From: Halomicroarcula saliterrae
GTDB taxonomy: Archaea; Halobacteriota; Halobacteria; Halobacteriales; Haloarculaceae
Direction: 5' to 3'
DNA: 64,000 nucleotides
NCBI RefSeq assembly: GCF_031624395.1
Contig: NZ_JAMQON010000001.1
Location: forward strand, 1,178,001 to 1,242,000
The position numbers and the translations under genes were made by a program. The notes under the pieces were generated by a model. It was not told the DNA's origin and made no database searches. It was given only the letters and a program-made list of their open reading frames with translations. Every line of letters begins with the position of its first letter. Positions within the stretch are counted from its first letter, which is position 1. Below, in pieces: positions 10,535 through 59,609 of the stretch.

Positions 10535-11143
10535 TCATCGGTGTCGCCTGCTCTCCCACTCCGCGTCGACGAGTTCCCTGACCCGCTCGAAGGCGGCCCG
10601 TTCCCGTTTGCTACCGGCCGTCTCGACGACCGACTCGAAGTACGCGAGCCGCTCCAGCAACGCTTCGCGGTCGTAGGCCGACACGTCGAGCCGTGAGGCC
10701 GCGACGGTCGCCTCGACGACGGCGGCGTGGCCGCGGTTCGTCGTCGGGACCACGCGACGCTCGACAGTGGCTTCCTCGGGGACGAGCGCCCACTCGACCC
10801 ACTGGGTGTCACCCTCCTCGCCGTCGGCCAGTCGCTCCACACTGACCCGGACCCACGCATCGGCGCTCGGCAGGACCGGCTCGGTCTCCTCACGCACCGA
10901 CAGCGCCGCCTCGGCGAAGTCCACGGGGTCACGCGTGAACTGCACGTACGCTTCGCCGCGCTCGCGGAAGTTCCGCCACGTCCGCGTCCGACCCCACGTC
11001 GTCGCCGTCACCGGCCCGTCAGCTTCGGGCCCGTGCAGTCCCAGCGCAGCCACGTTCCACAGCTCGTTCGGGCCGAGCGTCGTGACGACGGACTCGGTGA
11101 CACCGGTCAGGTCGGCCGGCCACTCCGGTTTCTCGTCGCCCAT
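10535..11143 (-). CDS. DUF447 family protein (predicted flavin-binding split barrel)
   Basis: 202 aa. The N-terminal half (NELWNVAALGLHG, TWGRTRTWRNFRERGEAYVQFTRDPVDFAEAAL) resembles the FMN-binding split-barrel fold. The C-terminal half is helical (YDREALLERLAYFESVVETAGSK). DUF447 proteins are found across methanogens, haloarchaea and methylotrophic bacteria, where they cluster with tetrahydromethanopterin or methanofuran genes (from memory). Function unknown. It is the last gene of the operon cofD > TIM barrel > CitG-like > DUF447, and its first base is the last base of the CitG-like gene, so coupling is tight. Confidence 0.85.
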   Translation of the reverse strand: MGDEKPEWPADLTGVTESVVTTLGPNELWNVAALGLHGPEADGPVTATTWGRTRTWRNFRERGEAYVQFTRDPVDFAEAALSVREETEPVLPSADAWVRVSVERLADGEEGDTQWVEWALVPEEATVERRVVPTTNRGHAAVVEATVAASRLDVSAYDREALLERLAYFESVVETAGSKRERAAFERVRELVDAEWESRRHR

Positions 11144-11982
11144 CAGACGACCAGCCCCCGTTCGAGGGCGACGAACAGCGCGCCGGCCACGAGGTCGGCC
11201 GTCGTCCCGGGGTTGATATCCCGTTCGACCAGGTCATCAGCCAACTCCGCCGCGTCTTCGTCGCCGTCGAGGACTGCCTTGGCCCGTCGCTGTACCTCTT
11301 CGGCGGCCTCGGGACCGTTGCGCGTGACGACGAAGGTGTCCCGTTCCTCGGCCAGCAGTTCGACGAACGCCCGTGAAGCGCGCTCGGAGACCGGCCCGTC
11401 GTCGGCCAGTATCCGCTCGGCGGCCGCGAAGACGCGCTCGAACTGCCCGGCCCACTCGGCCGCGACCCCGTCCACGTCGGCGCTCTGTTCCATGACGTCG
11501 AACAGCGTCAGCCCGCGCGCTTCCAGAACCGGAACCGCGTCGCTCCCGCGGCGAACGTCCAGAGGCTCCAGCCCGTCGGGCGGGTCGTCGACGGCCACGT
11601 CGACGTGCTCGAAGGCCCGATAGAAATCGGCCGCATCGTCGACAGTGGTCCCACGCACCACGCTATCGACGAAATCGGGGGTCAGCTCCCCGTCGCTCGC
11701 GGCGGCGACCAGCGGCGCGAGCACCAGCAGCGCGCCGAACTGCGTGTTCCCGGCCGACTGGTCGGCCATCCCGGCGACCGCCCGCTCGAACGCGCGGCCC
11801 AGGCGGTCACCGGCGCCAGCGCGTTCCAGTCCGGGCCGTGCGCCCACCGCGCCGGCCATGAAATGCTCGAACCGCAGGTCCGAGAACTCCCGGTCCCGGT
11901 CGACGTTGCCGGGTTTTGGCGTGCCGGTGACCTCCAGCAACAGCGCCAGTTCGGCGTTCTGAACGGGCGTCCGGTCGCTCAT
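11143..11982 (-). CDS. CitG/MdcB-like protein (triphosphoribosyl-dephospho-CoA synthase family)
   Basis: 279 aa from the ATG at 11982, which overlaps the upstream stop by four bases. Eight upstream codons are open but are inside the neighbour. The family motif TGTPKPGNVDRDREFSDLRFEHF (seen in two parts near residues 18-40) is the nucleotide-binding start of CitG, and AGNTQFGALLVLAPL follows. Classical CitG makes the prosthetic group of citrate lyase, but no citrate lyase or malonate decarboxylase genes are near. The archaeal members usually sit beside cofactor genes, so a kinase- or transferase-like step in another cofactor pathway is more likely. Confidence 0.85.
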   Translation of the reverse strand: MSDRTPVQNAELALLLEVTGTPKPGNVDRDREFSDLRFEHFMAGAVGARPGLERAGAGDRLGRAFERAVAGMADQSAGNTQFGALLVLAPLVAAASDGELTPDFVDSVVRGTTVDDAADFYRAFEHVDVAVDDPPDGLEPLDVRRGSDAVPVLEARGLTLFDVMEQSADVDGVAAEWAGQFERVFAAAERILADDGPVSERASRAFVELLAEERDTFVVTRNGPEAAEEVQRRAKAVLDGDEDAAELADDLVERDINPGTTADLVAGALFVALERGLVV

Positions 11983-12725
11983 CTGCCGGCCCCCCGGGCG
12001 ACCCACTCGTTGGCCGTCTCCCGGACCGCTCTCAGTATCTCCGGGTCGTCGCTCGCGCGGCCGACGCTGACAGCGTCGGCGCCGTACTCGAAGTACTCTC
12101 GTGCCGTTGCCGGCCCGCGGACACCGTTGTTCGCGATGACGAACAGGTCAGTCGCGTCAGCGAGTGCGGCGACCACCGACTCCGAGTCCATCGCGTCGAC
12201 GTGGACCGCGTCCGCGCCGGCGGCTTCGAGGCGACGAGCCAGTTCGAGGAGGGCGACGCCGTCGACTTCCGCCCTGACCTTCACCGAGACGGCAGCGTCC
12301 GTCTCGGCTGCCGTCCGGACCTGCCGGGCGAGTCGGTCGGGCTCACGGAGCAGGCTCTCACCGGCGCCGGCGGCACACATCTCGTCCTGTCGGCAGTGAG
12401 CGTTGAGTTCGAGGATGGCGTCGTGAGCCCGACAGACCTCGGCCGCGTCGCGGAGCGGGCCGAGCGTGGCGCTGCGGACGTTGTACCCCGGCCTGAGCGG
12501 CGCGTCGGCCAACGCCCCGAGCTGGGCGTCGACGAACCCGACCGGGTCCGCGGGCAGGAACTCCGAGCGGTCGCGGTCGGTCATCGCTTGGGCGGCGTCC
12601 CGTGTCGAGCCATCGAGCGCGATACCGCCCAGAAAGGCACAGCCGACGTGGGACGCCATCGCCTCGGCCCACGCGGCGTCGGCCTCGCCGCTGAGACTCG
12701 CCAGCGCCACCCGCGGCCGGAACAT
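11979..12725 (-). CDS. TIM-barrel flavoprotein of the dihydrouridine-synthase-like MJ0144 type
   Basis: 248 aa. The barrel shows FRPRVALASLSGEADAAW at the start, NAHCRQDEMCAAGAGESLL (DUS-like active-site loop with Cys), VSVKVRAEVDGVALLELAR, AVHVDAMDSESVV, FVIANNGVRGPATAREYFEYGADAVSVGRA (phosphate-binding end of the barrel). It is shorter than true tRNA-dihydrouridine synthases and lacks their C-terminal tRNA-binding helical domain. A metabolic flavoenzyme role is therefore as plausible as tRNA modification. It starts at the base where cofD ends. Confidence 0.78.
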   Translation of the reverse strand: MFRPRVALASLSGEADAAWAEAMASHVGCAFLGGIALDGSTRDAAQAMTDRDRSEFLPADPVGFVDAQLGALADAPLRPGYNVRSATLGPLRDAAEVCRAHDAILELNAHCRQDEMCAAGAGESLLREPDRLARQVRTAAETDAAVSVKVRAEVDGVALLELARRLEAAGADAVHVDAMDSESVVAALADATDLFVIANNGVRGPATAREYFEYGADAVSVGRASDDPEILRAVRETANEWVARGAGR

Positions 12726-13717
12726 CAGGCCACCTCCGCGAGCGCGTCGGCCACGGCGCGAGCCACGCGCTCGGAGTCCGATTCGTCGTCGAGCGACGTG
12801 TCCGTCCGGACGACGGGCCGTTCCAGCGCGGTTCCGTCCGCGCTATCGAGGACGAACGCGTCGGCGAACGGATACGCGGCCGCGACGCCGGCCGTGCTCG
12901 GCTCGCGGCCGACGCCGTCCATGAGGTCGGCGGCCGGACCGGAGAACACCTCGTCTTCGACGAACGGTGAGACGGCGACGACGGGAGTCTCGCTCAGCGC
13001 CTCGCGGATGCCGTCGACGGCCAGCATGGGGCCCAGCGACGTGACGGGGTTCGAGGGGCCCACGACGACGGGGTCGTCGAGGGCGTTCAGGACAGCGTCC
13101 GTCGCCTTTGCTCGGTCGCCGCCCCGGAACTGGACGTCATCGACGGCCAGCTCACCGTCCCGGCCGACCCACCACTCCTGAAAGTGCATCGGTCCCTGTG
13201 GCGTGTGTATCATCGTCGCCACGGGGTCGTCGCTCATCGGCAGCAGTTCTCGGTCGAGGCCGAAGGCGTCGGCCAGCCGCCGGGTCACCTCGGTCAGCGA
13301 GTGGCCCGCGTCAAGCAACGAGGTCCGCGTGACGTGGACCCCGCGGTCCCGGTCCCCGATGTGCATGAACTCGGCGACGCCGGAGAAGCGGCGATGGCGG
13401 GCGATATCGCGCCCGGCAGTCTGGGCGTCGGCCGGGAGATACTGCGGCCCGGTCGGCAGGTCGGCCGCGTCCGCCAGCCGGTGGAGCTCGTCGTGAGTCG
13501 CCGCGGTGTCGTCGGCGATACCCCACCACGTCTCTCGGTCGAGCACTCCGCCGTCCAGAAACAGGACGGTGTCGAGGTCGGGACAGACGAGGTGGCCGCC
13601 GAGCTCCACGTCGTCGCCGGTGTTCGCGATAACCGTCGTTCGCTCCGGCGCGAACACGTCGTCCGCGCCGGCCAGCAGCTTCGGCGTGCCGGTCCCGCCG
13701 GCGAGGAAAGTCACCAT
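12725..13717 (-). CDS. cofD: 2-phospho-L-lactate transferase CofD (coenzyme F420 biosynthesis)
   Basis: 330 aa from the ATG at 13717 ([20 protein letters not shown]). The upstream 49 open codons are non-conserved. The [11 protein letters not shown] phosphate loop, [21 protein letters not shown], and [23 protein letters not shown] are CofD signatures. The enzyme joins a phosphoenolpyruvate- or lactate-derived guanylate to the deazaflavin Fo, giving the F420 core. It heads the operon with the TIM-barrel, CitG-like and DUF447 genes. Confidence 0.95.
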
Positions 13718-16129: not shown

Positions 16130-19100
16130 ATGAATGGTTCCCGCTATCGCCTGTCTGCGGTCTGTCTCGCTCTTCTGCTGGTGACATCGTTCGTCGCCCA
16201 CCCTGTGTCCGCAGGCGGCTTCGGCGAACAGACGCCGGTCCGGAGTCCGTCGCTGGAGGCTGACAGCCTGACAGACACGGAAACGGACGCACTGAACGCC
16301 GCCATAACCCAGCGGCTGCCGGGACAGACCAAGCAGACGCCCGTCGACCCGGCCAACGATTCGACGCTCGATTGGCGCTTCGACGAGTCGCGCGGTCCGA
16401 TCGAATCCTCTCCCACCGTCATCGACGGCACCGCATACGTGGGCACGAACAGCGGCACGGTCTATGCCGTCGACGCCGACACCGGTGAGCGGGAGTGGGC
16501 CTTCGACGCATCCGCTGGCGCTGTCACCGGGTCGCCCGCCGTCGACAACGGCGTCGTCTACGCCGGGTCCCACGATGGGACGCTCTACGCAATCGACGCC
16601 GACACCGGCGAGGAGAAGTGGCGGTTCGAGCAGCCGTCGAGCTGGATATACGGCTCGCCGACGGTCAAGGGCGGGAGCGTCTACGTCGCCGGACTTGACG
16701 CGACCGTCTACTCGGTCGACACCGGGAGCGGGGCGCTCGAATGGCGCTTCGACGGCGTCGACGACTCCGTCGGACAGCCACTGGGTGACTCTGTGAGCGG
16801 CCCCTCTGTCGCTTCAGATGGGTCGTTTGGGCCTGTCGCCTCGTCGGTCACTGTCGTCGACAACACGGTGTACGTCGGAACGACCGAGGGCACGCTCCAC
16901 GCCCTCGACGCTTGGACCGGCCGACAGCGCTGGCAGTTCGACGACCCCGAGGGCCCGCTGTTTTCCTCGCCGACGGTGCACGAAGACACGGTCTACGTGG
17001 GAAGCGACGACGAGACGCTCTACGCCGTCGACGCGACCACGGGCGAGCGCGACTGGTCGTTCAACGAGCCCGACGGTCCCGTCGCTTCCTCGCCGACGGT
17101 CCACGACGACACCGTCTACGTCGGTAGCGAGGACGAGACGCTCTACGCCGTCGGGGCAGCCAACGGAACGTTCGAGTGGGCCTTCAGCGAGCTCCCGTCC
17201 GAAGGGCCGGAGGACGTCTTCTCCTCGCCCACAGTCGCTGGCGGGACTGTCTACGTAGGCAGCGAGGACTCCGCCGTCTACGGAATCGATGCGGAGACTG
17301 GCAGAGAGACAGCGACGTTCGACACGCCGACCGGTTCGGTTCGGTCCTCCCCTGTCGTTGTCGACGGGACGCTGTACGTCGGTGCGAACGACGGCGCGCT
17401 GTACGCGTTCGACACGGCGGGGTCGGCGACCAGCGAGGGCTCGCGCGTCCAGCAGGGGACACTCGGCCACACCCACCCGTGTCCGGAGCTCCGACTCGAG
17501 GACAGCGACGACGACTGCATCCCTGACGCCGTGGCCGAAGCCGACCTCCAGATGCCCGATGACGGCTCGGACGCGGCGGGGGACCCGATAAACCTCGACC
17601 CCACCGAGCGTGACACGAGCGGGAACGGCATCCACGACCACCGGCTCATCGACGTGGAGTGGGAGGTAGTCGACGGCGGTGCGGACCCGGTCGTCGAGGC
17701 CGAGGTGACCGATGCAATCGCGAACCCGAGCCGCGTCGACTCCACCGGTGACGGGCTGACCGACCGCGAACAGCTCCGCGGCTGGGAGATTGCCTATACG
17801 GAGTCTGAAGAGGCATCCAGACGGTTGTTCAAAGCCATCGGGAAGGCTGACGACGGCGAGGACTCCGCCCTCGGAGCGATCGTCAGGGCACGGGAGACCT
17901 ACATGACCACCGAGTGGGTCACGACGGACCCGCTCCGCAACGACACCGACGGCGACCTCGCTGACATCGAAGAACGAAAACTCGGCACCCACCCGCGAAA
18001 GGTGGATACGACCGGTGATGAGGCGAAAGATGTCGACGCCGGTCTGGCCGGGTACGACCCGACGATATTCGAGAAAAGCCCGCCCAAAATCGACATTTAC
18101 GGTACGGATTTCAACAAGCCGTCCGGTAGCTGGGACGGCAACTACACGGTAACCCTCGACGTCCAGGATCCGCGGGGACTCCGCGAAGTGCGATTGGTGA
18201 AAGACGGGAACGTCGAAAAACGGGTCGACGTCTCGGGGGAACACTTCTCCGGCGAGATGTACATCGATACCGGGGAGGTCGAAACGATACTCGACCTGTT
18301 CACCGGGGCGACGCTACTCGTCGAAGCCGAGAACGAGAACGGCGCCAATTCGACGAAGTTCGCCCGACAGCAGAAAGACATCTTCGGTATTCTCACGGAG
18401 CGCCTCAGCGAGAAGAATCTGACCACCGCGGAAGTCGAGTTCCGCCTCGCGGTCATGTCGGGGATGACGACGGGCGCCGGCGAGTCGCTCGAAGCGATTC
18501 GGTACATGATAACTGACCCCGAGGCGTATATCGAGGATACGCTCGCGGTCGTCAACCAGATCGAGAACCTCCCGGAGCTTATCGCGGCGTATCCCGGAAC
18601 GATTCAGACGAAACAGAAGCAGAACAACATACACGACCCCGGAGACGAAGGCTACGAGAACTATCGAGACGGCTGGTACGCCGGCTACACGTTCTGGTTC
18701 GTCGTCGAGATGATACAGCCGGGCGGCCAGATCAGCCGCGCTATCAAGAGCACGGACAAGTTCCAGGACCTGGCCAGCAGTCTCAGCAAGACCCGTATCG
18801 GCCAAGCGGCTCGGTTCGCCCAGCGAGCGGCGGACAAAGGGAAAGCCCCCGTCCGAATCTCGCGGTATCACCTCTCACGCGGAATCAAAGCCGGGCTGGG
18901 GTTCAGCGGCGACGGGGGCCGGCGCATCGTCGGAGGTGTCGACTCCGTCGGCCAGCAGATTCGCGTCGCCAAGCGCCTCCACCGCAGCGACGTCGACCGT
19001 GACGCCATCGAAGGGCTCTCAGATGGCGAAAAGCGCGAACTGGGCGAATCGCTGGCCCGTCACCGGGACGGCAACTCAAACTTCGTCATCAAGGGCAACG

Positions 19101-20140
19101 ACGGCACGAGCCGGGTAGTCGTCCCCGAGGAAATCGGCACGACCCAGTGGCGCTTCCAGAGAGCGTACGAGGAGGGCGATATCGACAGTAGCGAACTCGA
19201 GACGGTTCAGCACCGGTACGACGAGCTGGATGCAGACGGCAAGCATGAGTTCGACGACCTGCTGGAACGCAACGGTGACGACACGGTCGAATTCGCCGCT
19301 CGGTCGGACTCGGACACGTTCGATGCCGTTGTCTCGCCCTGTGGGACTCGTGGTGCGCCATCGCTCAACGGTGCAGTTGCGCTCGGGACCGACCGGTACT
19401 ACTCGGTTGAAGCGCAGCCGTCAAGTCTTGCCCAGAGCGGTGGGAGCTGTCCCGACCTTCCTGACGATCTCGAAGATGATCTAAGAGAATCCTTGATCGA
19501 TCTCGACTGGAGCAAACTTGACGACGGTGATCTTGAAACAGCTGATGTCCGGCGGATGCGCGAACTCCTCGAGAGTGGTGAGATGGACCAAGCCGACGTC
19601 AGGCGTCTCACGGAGATTATCGAATCCAGAGACAGGAGTGAACTCTTCGATGACAATATCGTTGCAGCAGATCTCACCGGGATTGGTGACCGAGGCGACC
19701 TGAGCTCGACCCAGTTAGTCGCTAAAGATGGTAATGGTAATACTCGATGGCTCGAACAGGGGAGATACGACCCCGACGGGGCCCAGAAAGATACTGGTTG
19801 GTCCTATCTCGAGGGGCGGCATATCGAGGGACGGCAGCTAAACGATAAAGAGGCGACTGATTTTTGGCCAGTCGGCCAATCAGTCGGAGATGAAACTCTG
19901 CCAAACACAATGTCACGCCGTGATATCCGAGAGAGTGTTTATCAAGCTGTTAAGGATACAAAGACTACTGAGCAAGACGCGTTCAATTACGATGGGTTTA
20001 GTTCTGAGTTTGTCGAACAGACTGGTGTGGAATCAATCCGAGTCGTTATTCGTAACGGGCGAGTTCGAACAGCGTACCCGAAACGAGGGCCATCCGTCTG
20101 GAAATACGTCTCCGAAAACGACGTTGGCTGGATAAAATAG
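16130..20140 (+). CDS. Giant secreted beta-propeller protein, candidate polymorphic toxin with C-terminal BECR-type RNase domain
   Basis: 1336 aa. A Sec signal peptide covers residues 1-29 (cleavage near PVSA/GG). Residues 80-430 hold about eight PQQ-like propeller blades (repeating SSPTVxDxTVYVGSxDxTLYAVDAxTG). Residues 455-640 carry Asp-rich calcium-binding thrombospondin-3-like repeats (DSDDDCIPD, DTSGNGIHD, DSTGDGLTD, DTDGDLAD). Residues 650-745 form an Ig-like domain, and 785-960 a helical region with a hydrophobic stretch (WYAGYTFWFVVEMIQPGGQIS). The last ~140 residues show a Gly-Arg-His-Ile motif (His1231) and a terminal IRVVIRNGRVRTAYPK (residues 1303-1318), the pattern I associate with Barnase/EndoU/ColicinE5/RelE nucleases. 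G+C drops towards the 3' end. A small acidic gene follows after six bases. The toxin reading rests on architecture and context; no biochemical family match was run. Confidence 0.75.
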   Translation: MNGSRYRLSAVCLALLLVTSFVAHPVSAGGFGEQTPVRSPSLEADSLTDTETDALNAAITQRLPGQTKQTPVDPANDSTLDWRFDESRGPIESSPTVIDGTAYVGTNSGTVYAVDADTGEREWAFDASAGAVTGSPAVDNGVVYAGSHDGTLYAIDADTGEEKWRFEQPSSWIYGSPTVKGGSVYVAGLDATVYSVDTGSGALEWRFDGVDDSVGQPLGDSVSGPSVASDGSFGPVASSVTVVDNTVYVGTTEGTLHALDAWTGRQRWQFDDPEGPLFSSPTVHEDTVYVGSDDETLYAVDATTGERDWSFNEPDGPVASSPTVHDDTVYVGSEDETLYAVGAANGTFEWAFSELPSEGPEDVFSSPTVAGGTVYVGSEDSAVYGIDAETGRETATFDTPTGSVRSSPVVVDGTLYVGANDGALYAFDTAGSATSEGSRVQQGTLGHTHPCPELRLEDSDDDCIPDAVAEADLQMPDDGSDAAGDPINLDPTERDTSGNGIHDHRLIDVEWEVVDGGADPVVEAEVTDAIANPSRVDSTGDGLTDREQLRGWEIAYTESEEASRRLFKAIGKADDGEDSALGAIVRARETYMTTEWVTTDPLRNDTDGDLADIEERKLGTHPRKVDTTGDEAKDVDAGLAGYDPTIFEKSPPKIDIYGTDFNKPSGSWDGNYTVTLDVQDPRGLREVRLVKDGNVEKRVDVSGEHFSGEMYIDTGEVETILDLFTGATLLVEAENENGANSTKFARQQKDIFGILTERLSEKNLTTAEVEFRLAVMSGMTTGAGESLEAIRYMITDPEAYIEDTLAVVNQIENLPELIAAYPGTIQTKQKQNNIHDPGDEGYENYRDGWYAGYTFWFVVEMIQPGGQISRAIKSTDKFQDLASSLSKTRIGQAARFAQRAADKGKAPVRISRYHLSRGIKAGLGFSGDGGRRIVGGVDSVGQQIRVAKRLHRSDVDRDAIEGLSDGEKRELGESLARHRDGNSNFVIKGNDGTSRVVVPEEIGTTQWRFQRAYEEGDIDSSELETVQHRYDELDADGKHEFDDLLERNGDDTVEFAARSDSDTFDAVVSPCGTRGAPSLNGAVALGTDRYYSVEAQPSSLAQSGGSCPDLPDDLEDDLRESLIDLDWSKLDDGDLETADVRRMRELLESGEMDQADVRRLTEIIESRDRSELFDDNIVAADLTGIGDRGDLSSTQLVAKDGNGNTRWLEQGRYDPDGAQKDTGWSYLEGRHIEGRQLNDKEATDFWPVGQSVGDETLPNTMSRRDIRESVYQAVKDTKTTEQDAFNYDGFSSEFVEQTGVESIRVVIRNGRVRTAYPKRGPSVWKYVSENDVGWIK

Positions 20141-57730: not shown

Positions 57731-58702
57731 ATGGCGACGGTCACGACCGCGGCACGGCTTCACTTTGGCTTCCAGAACCTCTCGCTGGCCCACGAGCGGC
57801 TGTACGGTGGCGTCGGGCTCGCGCTCGCCGAGCCACGGCTCGTCGTCGAGGCCGAGCCGGCCGACTCGCTCGTCTGTGACGACGCGGCGGCCGAACCCTA
57901 CGCCCGTCGCGTGCTGGACGTGCTGGACGTGTCGGGTGCCGAAGTGAGCGTCCGCGACCGGTTCCCGCGCCACGTCGGCCTGGGCAGTGGTACACAGCTC
58001 GCACTGGCGACGCTCATCGCCGTCGCGCGGGCCCACGACCTGACGGCGGACGCGCGGACGGTCGCCCCGCGGCTCGGTCGGGGCGGGCGAAGCGGCGTCG
58101 GCGTCGCGACCTTCGAGCAGGGCGGGTTCGTCGTCGACGGCGGCCACCCCACCGAGCGGTTCACCGCGACGCCGCCCGCGGAGGGCGACTGGGACGTGCC
58201 GCCCGTGGTGGCCAGCCACCACGTCCCCGCCGACTGGCGGTTCGTCCTCGTCGTGCCCGACACCGACCCGGGCCAGAGCGGGAGTGACGAGGACCGGAGC
58301 ATGCGGACGGCTATCGAGCGGGCCGACCCCGGCATCGCCGACCAGATATCGGCGCTGCTGACTCGGCGGCTGCTGCCGGCCATCGCGACGCGGAACCGCC
58401 GGGACTTCGGCGGCGCCGCGGCCCGGCTCGGACGACTGAACGGCGCGTGGTACGCCGACGAGCAGGGCGGTGTCTACAGACCGCCGGCGGGTACCATCGT
58501 GGAGTCACTCGCGGACGCCCCGACTATCACCGGCGCGGGGCAGTCTTCGTGGGGCCCGACGGTGTGGGGACTTACCGACACGGAGGGGATGGACGAGGCG
58601 AAGGACGCCGGCTATCGGGCGCTGGAGGCGGCCGGTGTCGGCGGCGAGGTCCACGTGGCCGCCCCGCGCAACACCGGGGCGTCGCTGGTCGATGACGGGT
58701 GA
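57731..58702 (+). CDS. Beta-RFAP synthase homologue (GHMP family)
   Basis: 323 aa from the ATG at 57731 (MATVTTAARLHFGFQNLSL). RLHFGFQNLS near the N-terminus and the glycine-rich PRHVGLGSGTQLALATLIAVA loop are the signatures of beta-ribofuranosylaminobenzene 5'-phosphate synthase (MptG), the first committed step of methanopterin synthesis. PRLGRGGRSGVGVATFEQGGFVVDGGH and GAGQSSWGPTVWGL are also present. Haloarchaea are generally thought to use folate-type C1 carriers, so the actual product is uncertain. Confidence 0.88.
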   Translation: MATVTTAARLHFGFQNLSLAHERLYGGVGLALAEPRLVVEAEPADSLVCDDAAAEPYARRVLDVLDVSGAEVSVRDRFPRHVGLGSGTQLALATLIAVARAHDLTADARTVAPRLGRGGRSGVGVATFEQGGFVVDGGHPTERFTATPPAEGDWDVPPVVASHHVPADWRFVLVVPDTDPGQSGSDEDRSMRTAIERADPGIADQISALLTRRLLPAIATRNRRDFGGAAARLGRLNGAWYADEQGGVYRPPAGTIVESLADAPTITGAGQSSWGPTVWGLTDTEGMDEAKDAGYRALEAAGVGGEVHVAAPRNTGASLVDDG

Positions 58703-58772: not shown

Positions 58773-59609
58773 ATGGATCGCATCCCCTTCGGTGTCAAGC
58801 AGCTCGACTCCATCATCAACGGGGGAGCGCCGACCGGGAGCGTCGTCCTCCTCTCCGGGCAGGCCGGGGCGGGCTCGCGGGAGTTCATGCACACCAGCGC
58901 GGTCATCAACGGGATGGCCGAGGAAGACCCGGAGCTGTTCGACCTCTACTACGGGGAGCCCTCGGACCGGACCACCCTCCCGGAAGAAGTCCACTATCTC
59001 TCCTTTACCGCCAGCGAGGGACAGCTGGCCGACGAGATGCGGCTGGCGATGGACGACGAGGTGCTGGACGCCGGGCTGACCGGCATCGAGTTCCACGACA
59101 TGTCCGAGCGGTACTTCCACATGAGCCCGGTGCCCCGGGAGTGGTACGCCGACCAGACGCCGACGATCAAGGACCTGCGCGCGCGCCACGAGCGGGACGA
59201 CCTGCTGAGTGCCCTGGGCACGAAACTCAGCAACATCTCGGCGAACAACCTCGTCGTCATCGACTCGCTGTCCGACCTCGTGGCCGCGATGGGCGAGGAC
59301 ATCGACTGGGCCGACATCACCTTCCTGGTCTCGGGCATCCAGAAGGCGGCCCACCAGTGGGGCGGGCTCATCCTCCTGCATCTCAACCACGAGACGCTCT
59401 CTCCCACCCGGGCCGGACAGCTCAGCGAAGCAGCCCACGGTACCATGGAGTTCTCCTGGGAATCGGGCGGGTCGACGCGGGCCCGGACGCTCGTCGTCAA
59501 GCAGTTCCGCGGCGTCCTCTCCCAGATCGAAGACGAGAACATCGTCCAGTTCGAGACCGAACTCGGCGACGCCGGCTTCGATATCAGCGACGTCCGAAAG
59601 ATACGCTGA
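58773..59609 (+). CDS. RecA/KaiC-superfamily protein (HTR-like) with a degenerate P-loop
   Basis: 278 aa, leaderless by TATA position (CGTTTAAG near 58741). FGVKQLDSIINGGAPTGSVVLLSGQAGAGSREFMHTSAVI shows the KaiC/RAD55 start, but the Walker A Lys-Ser/Thr is replaced: GQAGAGSRE instead of GxxGxGKS/T. Walker B-like NLVVIDSLSDLVAAM is preserved, followed by HLNHETLSPTRAGQLSEAAHG and ARTLVVKQFRGVLS. It may not hydrolyse ATP. These HTR-like proteins are widespread in haloarchaea. Confidence 0.87.
   Translation: MDRIPFGVKQLDSIINGGAPTGSVVLLSGQAGAGSREFMHTSAVINGMAEEDPELFDLYYGEPSDRTTLPEEVHYLSFTASEGQLADEMRLAMDDEVLDAGLTGIEFHDMSERYFHMSPVPREWYADQTPTIKDLRARHERDDLLSALGTKLSNISANNLVVIDSLSDLVAAMGEDIDWADITFLVSGIQKAAHQWGGLILLHLNHETLSPTRAGQLSEAAHGTMEFSWESGGSTRARTLVVKQFRGVLSQIEDENIVQFETELGDAGFDISDVRKIR

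Follow-up and report, generated by a model that had tools for sequence, protein, structure and literature searches.

Related clusters in methanogens, Sulfolobus and bacteria

In methanopterin-type pathways, beta-RFAP synthase (RFAPS) condenses phosphoribosyl pyrophosphate with an aryl acid into a C-riboside, the ribose is converted to ribitol, and a second ribose is added in alpha linkage; CitG, for its part, forms an alpha-ribosyl bond from ATP. Here, we describe a set of related genes in a 64,000-nucleotide stretch of the haloarchaeon Halomicroarcula saliterrae (contig NZ_JAMQON010000001.1, positions 1,178,001 to 1,242,000; hereafter the window). A run at window positions 10535-13717 encodes CofD, a TIM-barrel protein, a CitG-like protein and a DUF447 protein, and an RFAPS homologue lies elsewhere in the window. 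CitG, DUF447 and RFAPS share a phylogenetic profile, the synteny of CitG and DUF447 is conserved, the families belong to methanogen and bacterial clusters, and they are lost together with Mer. We favor, with a probability of roughly 0.52, the reading in which the run survives in haloarchaea as a remnant of a methanogen cofactor cluster, with two modules joined by transcription only, the second of them belonging to a methanopterin-type one-carbon (C1) carrier pathway.

Bacterial tetrahydromethanopterin/methylofuran clusters include the CitG-like and DUF447 families. The CitG-like gene of Azospirillum (L137) and Phyllobacterium (L139) is clustered with those for RFAPS, methylene-tetrahydromethanopterin dehydrogenase (MtdB), Mch, Fae, a RimK-type ligase and the formyltransferase/hydrolase (fhc) proteins, and in Phyllobacterium and Thiodictyon (L140) DUF447 directly follows DUF6513, a relative of TIGR00284, and a DmrX/AfpA-type flavoprotein. 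DUF447 has also been reported in the corresponding region of Burkholderiaceae (PMC9088363). An earlier note, made from the letters of the window alone, had placed CitG-like and DUF447 proteins in such clusters, and these bacterial loci bear it out. The bacterial clusters share the CitG-like, DUF447 and RFAPS families and the KPGNV motif with haloarchaea, in hosts that are not known to need CofD; they also hold fhc, MtdB, MfnB/MfnE and the RimK-type ligase, whereas haloarchaea pair CitG, DUF447 and RFAPS with Mer, Mch and folate.

In Sulfolobales, a folate analogue with both folate and methanopterin characters has been described (PMC3261824). The Sulfolobus control genome carries the same three families as haloarchaea and gave no CofD match. 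Sulfolobus acidocaldarius differs from haloarchaea in having a TIGR00284 match and in lacking any match to Mer or Mch above cut-off.

Gene content of the run

Families in the window were assigned by Pfam and NCBIfam profile matches, with bit scores read against the cut-off of each family. The four genes form a single minus-strand run in which neighbors overlap by 1, 4 and 1 bases, within the limit of four bases that the earlier note had given. The first gene (12725-13717, 330 amino acids) passes the TIGR01819 equivalog test for F420 biosynthesis (376 bits, cut-off 257), so that the run does open with an F420 enzyme, as first noticed; CofD is 2-phospho-L-lactate transferase, an ordinary F420 enzyme that stands functionally apart from the CitG/DUF447 pair. 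It is followed by a Dus-like TIM barrel of the MJ0144 family (11979-12725, 248 amino acids), which matches PF01207 Dus at 43 bits (cut-off 20.4) and TIGR00736 at 103 bits, under the cut-off of 218.7. The third gene (11143-11982, 279 amino acids) encodes the CitG-like protein, which carries the KPGNV signature and matches PF01874 at 234 bits (cut-off 27). The DUF447 protein (10535-11143, 202 amino acids) matches PF04289 at 83 bits (cut-off 24) and PF20766 at 63 bits (cut-off 24.8), and is homologous to the solved structures 2iml, 2ptf, 2nr4 and 3b5m, relatives that we take to be split barrels with bound flavin mononucleotide (FMN). Directly after DUF447 comes an open reading frame (ORF) of 63 amino acids, matching ribosomal protein S17e in place and length and annotated as such in Natrinema.

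The RFAPS homologue, on the plus strand at 57731-58702, is unlinked to the run in this genome. Its identification in the earlier note holds, with 165 bits against TIGR00144 (cut-off 113.5); with NF040726 it scores 174 bits, under the cut-off of 328, and the RFAPS within a bacterial methanopterin cluster scores 177. An ORF for a KaiC-like ATPase (58773-59609) lies directly 3' of it on the same strand.

Membership of PF01874 and weak similarity to TIGR03125 and TIGR03132 might suggest that the CitG-like protein is an ordinary triphosphoribosyl-dephospho-CoA synthase, serving the prosthetic groups of citrate or malonate (de)carboxylases. We find this hardly credible. Against the CitG/MdcB families the window protein scores 39-44 bits, far below the cut-offs of 272-282, and the KPGLVD signature is not matched. 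By alignment, KPGNV and NPG[ST] (KPGNV/NPGT) are common to the CitG proteins of haloarchaea, methanogens and bacterial clusters, whereas E. coli CitG, the match in the E. coli control and there for citrate lyase, has KPGLV and SPGG. The neighbors, moreover, are methanopterin genes. A citrate-lyase-type CitG was rejected on signature and scores.

Conserved synteny in archaea

Among 30 haloarchaeal CitG loci, viewed with flanks of 1.5 kb, DUF447 lies directly downstream of CitG on the same strand in every case, and 19 of the loci show the complete order CofD-TIM-CitG-DUF447; on these two counts, we do not regard the run as a chance arrangement. The pair extends well beyond haloarchaea, with CitG followed by DUF447 in 28 of 30 loci of other Halobacteriota and in 55 of the 74 named archaeal loci that extend far enough to show DUF447. 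The scan for loci used the CitG alignment, that of DUF447 being too diverged to serve as a query, and kept 80 loci, all from methanogen-like archaea. CitG-DUF447 is an old methanogen pair, nearly universal in loci of the Methanocellales/Methanosarcina type (L206, L146, L149, L219) as in haloarchaea. Haloarchaeal CitG proteins are 38-42% identical to a methanogen protein (L018); they form one clade (99/93) beside methanogen sequences of family f16 (98/94), the placement that vertical descent would predict.

The order in Methanosarcina is marker 9 protein-CitG-DUF447-dihydromethanopterin reductase. The methanogen-related Euryarchaeota bog_38 (L206) reads CofD-marker 9 protein-CitG-DUF447-DmrX-TIGR00284, and so shares both order and orientation of CofD, TIM, CitG and DUF447 with the window. 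The haloarchaeal operon corresponds to the left part of this arrangement, and we read it as what is left of a methanogen cofactor cluster. In Methanosarcina and L206 the dihydromethanopterin reductase (TIGR02700, 294-406 bits, cut-off 251) lies directly 3' of DUF447; in contrast, the haloarchaeal operon is without both this reductase and the TIGR00284 protein downstream, and no such reductase (DmrX/AfpA) was found downstream of DUF447 in the window, the whole genome not having been searched. In some genomes of family f3 (G032 and G153; Natrialbaceae-type, a guessed name) and in Natrinema, CofD-TIM and CitG-DUF447 are found at separate places, and the break in the f3 genomes falls exactly between the two modules.

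Methanogen marker 9 proteins (L206:8878-9984, L219:8803-9942) share 39-43% identity with the TIM barrel over their N-terminal part. The methanogen homologues continue into a C-terminal TIGR03277 domain (153-181 bits), whereas the haloarchaeal protein ends before it and so is without the marker 9 domain. Its Cys and Lys positions match those of Dus enzymes. By sequence, it belongs to the Dus fold family, and it stays with CofD when CitG and DUF447 are lost. Part of a methanogenesis marker 9 protein thus persists beside CofD in non-methanogens.

Phylogenetic profile in Halobacteria

CofD, Mch, the TIM barrel, CitG, RFAPS and Mer were profiled in the same set of 116 Halobacteria genomes, each at least 95% complete, and DUF447 in a sample of the phylum that included 27 Halobacteria. 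CofD and Mch are present in all 116. CitG-like protein is found in 113, the exceptions being G008, G049 and G104, and the RFAPS homologue has the identical set of absences (113/116). DUF447 is absent from the same three genomes (24/27). Mer orthologues, all scoring at least 266 bits, are likewise present in 113; G008 and G049 have no match, and G104 has only a Mer-family match (E 9.7e-39), which we read as a distant paralogue, since every other genome with a match reaches that score. G008 and G049 belong to one genus and G104 is separate, so that the three absences represent two lineages. All three genomes retain CofD adjoining the TIM barrel, as well as Mch, and G049 also retains CofE. In one genome (G224:C12:147960-149032), the RFAPS homologue is spread over two frames, a pseudogene or a sequencing error. 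DUF447, CitG and RFAPS are also co-present in the Methanocaldococcus, Haloferax, Sulfolobus and Methanosarcina genomes of a 14-genome control set. CitG-like, DUF447 and the RFAPS homologue very probably share one pathway.

The TIM barrel follows a different distribution. It is present in 114 of the 116 genomes and missing only from G017 and G196, where it is gone from between CofD and CitG (L099, L106) and all other genes are kept. The strict co-occurrence that the earlier note had named as support, across five families, is seen for RFAPS, CitG and DUF447 in Halobacteria, but CofD and the TIM barrel do not follow, and the idea of the four genes as a single pathway falls.

This pattern also speaks to the possibility that the operon in its entirety serves to modify or complete F420, for instance by reduction of dehydro-F420-0 or a change to the tail. 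Such a role would account for the single run with CofD and for CofD lying upstream in Methanocellales-type loci as well, but the distribution largely refutes it for CitG/DUF447 and makes it very improbable. Sulfolobus has CitG and DUF447 without CofD, and three haloarchaea have CofD without CitG and DUF447; F420 is therefore not what this pair serves. In 8 of the 30 haloarchaeal loci the pair has no CofD nearby, and methylotroph-type bacterial clusters hold it amid methanopterin genes. Where the earlier note had offered a C1 carrier or an F420-linked cofactor, the independent distribution of CofD and the TIM barrel makes the second unlikely and leaves the methanopterin-type carrier as the better half.

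Mer and the split methionine synthase

The split methionine synthase of haloarchaea is the pair MetE1 and MetE2. In G104, MetE2 is gone and a diverged MetE1 (49%) remains; in G008 and G049, MetE1 is gone and MetE2 (46-48% identical) remains. MetE1 was rejected as a clean co-lost gene because its diverged copy persists in G104, where MetE2 is the one lost. Two MTHFR-family (MetF-type) matches covering most of the profile (8-211 and 45-274) occur in G008 and G049 only, and 24 other genomes have one shorter match each, mostly around 67-225. These MetF-type genes (L132, L133) suggest a replacement of Mer, in agreement with the folate-plus-MetF scheme published for the related anaerobe Halodesulfurarchaeum (PMC5437934). 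From the methionine synthase losses and the MetF-type matches together, we conclude that the losses in both lineages are a loss or replacement of the Mer branch, reached along different routes. The RFAPS homologue and Mer are 2.2 kb apart in G017, and CofE lies between them.

A putative second C1 carrier

We consider it an even chance that CitG, DUF447 and RFAPS lead to a C1 carrier of methanopterin type that serves Mer and methionine synthesis. In this scheme, whose chemical steps and product we infer, the first module, CofD and probably the TIM barrel, would serve F420, and the second, the CitG-like and DUF447 proteins with the unlinked RFAPS homologue, a methanopterin-type pathway to a carrier with a ribosyl-aryl tail. 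The RFAPS homologue would convert phosphoribosyl pyrophosphate and an aryl acid into a C-riboside, and a dihydropteroate synthase (DHPS) shared with folate would couple this to a pterin; with TIGR00284 absent, that coupling would fall to the folate DHPS. DUF447, presumed to be an FMN protein, would turn the ribose into ribitol by reductive opening, and the CitG-like protein would add the second, alpha-linked ribose (phosphate), much as CitG acts on dephospho-CoA. Dihydrofolate reductase would stand in for the lost dihydromethanopterin reductase. The product would then bear a C1 unit, to be reduced to a methyl group by F420-dependent Mer for the split methionine synthase, with folate keeping purines and thymidylate.

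The chemistry of RFAPS and CitG outlined at the start makes the CitG-like protein a candidate for the second ribosylation and DUF447 one for the reductive opening. The former assignment, as a (phospho)ribosyl transferase, is tentative; the latter, as a flavin-dependent enzyme, is doubtful. With slightly less than even confidence, we propose that most haloarchaea make two C1 carriers, folate and a further tetrahydropterin whose ribosyl-aryl tail is of methanopterin type. The latter would serve F420-dependent Mer together with the split methionine synthase, and would be lost only where methionine synthesis has been lost or has switched to a MetF-type enzyme. Such a carrier may have been overlooked because haloarchaea are classed as folate organisms.

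Evidence weighing against a second carrier

Several observations count against this proposal, beginning with the profile itself. The co-loss comprises only two lineages, both with small genomes, and might be coincidental, the genomes of amino-acid auxotrophs and anaerobes having shed, as they shrank, genes that share no pathway in haloarchaea. All three are small, at 2.1-2.4 Mb, and G049 is without many genes: in a comparison covering 2.0 of its 2.09 Mb, no good match was seen for 23 of the 56 ORFs called in the window, nor for 11 of 35 from the compact genome G220. With roughly one in three arbitrary genes missing, absence from G049 alone says little. Coincidence is nonetheless improbable, as G116 (1.9 Mb), G220 (2.2 Mb), G064 (2.5 Mb) and G193 (2.5 Mb) are small yet retain CitG, RFAPS and Mer, and synteny and the bacterial clusters join the same genes independently. 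The weight of the profile lies in the exact match of the absence sets, in retention by 113 other genomes, small ones included, and in the independent synteny. The window also holds an ORF of 1336 amino acids with PQQ-type beta-propeller repeats (16130-20140), which has no homologue in G049.

Mch is not lost along with CitG, RFAPS and Mer, and its presence in all 116 genomes led us to reject it as a co-lost gene. Haloarchaea are reported to contain folate, not methanopterin, and to be without methanopterin-specific enzymes; curators judge HVO_2628 to be probably not RFAPS and would have Mer named a folate enzyme (PMC8305020, PMC4500146). Mer might indeed act on folate, and vanish merely with methionine synthesis. 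The TIGR00284 DHPS-like protein, which belongs to methanogen, Sulfolobus and bacterial clusters, was not found in the 116 Halobacteria, where the best match reached 26 bits and the weak matches lie in frames of 800-980 amino acids, probably folate DHPS. Absent from all haloarchaea, it was set aside as a further co-lost gene, being uninformative on co-loss, and counts against a full pathway. Finally, haloarchaeal RFAPS (residues read at loci L063-L092) retains the RLH, HxGxGxGT and GQSSWGP motifs and, in all 27 clear sequences, Arg26, but the position of Asp19 (M. thermautotrophicus numbering) is Asn in 25 of the 27 and Ser in two. This change may mark a different aryl acceptor.

On such grounds CitG, DUF447 and RFAPS could be genes of the former methanopterin pathway, retained for a new product, a C-ribosylated aromatic in place of a pterin C1 carrier, with Mer working on folate. 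ForT, an RFAPS homologue that makes a C-nucleoside, is likewise without the Asp; TIGR00284 is missing, no dihydromethanopterin reductase stands beside the CitG-DUF447 pair, and folate is the reported carrier (PMC8305020). We regard this as rather unlikely, because it leaves the exact co-loss with Mer and the partial loss of methionine synthase unexplained. In the M. thermautotrophicus enzyme, D19A is inactive but D19N is partly active (PMC6787355). Moreover, Methanosarcina barkeri, a methanopterin organism, contains folates (PMC3261824), and two carriers can therefore coexist.

Implications for haloarchaeal C1 metabolism

A second carrier would contradict the current annotation, in which haloarchaea have no methanopterin and Mer and Mch have been reassigned to folate. 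We found no functional studies of DUF447, MJ0144 or the locus tags tried, and the haloarchaeal C1 literature that we found treats neither the CitG-like protein nor DUF447. Three genes of methanopterin type are retained by nearly every haloarchaeon and are lost where Mer is lost. If there is such a carrier, the schemes for methionine synthesis and C1 metabolism in haloarchaea would have to be redrawn, and the remaining unassigned methanopterin steps, those of the CitG-like and DUF447 proteins, could be tested in Haloferax volcanii, an aerobe that is easy to manipulate genetically, and not in strict anaerobes.

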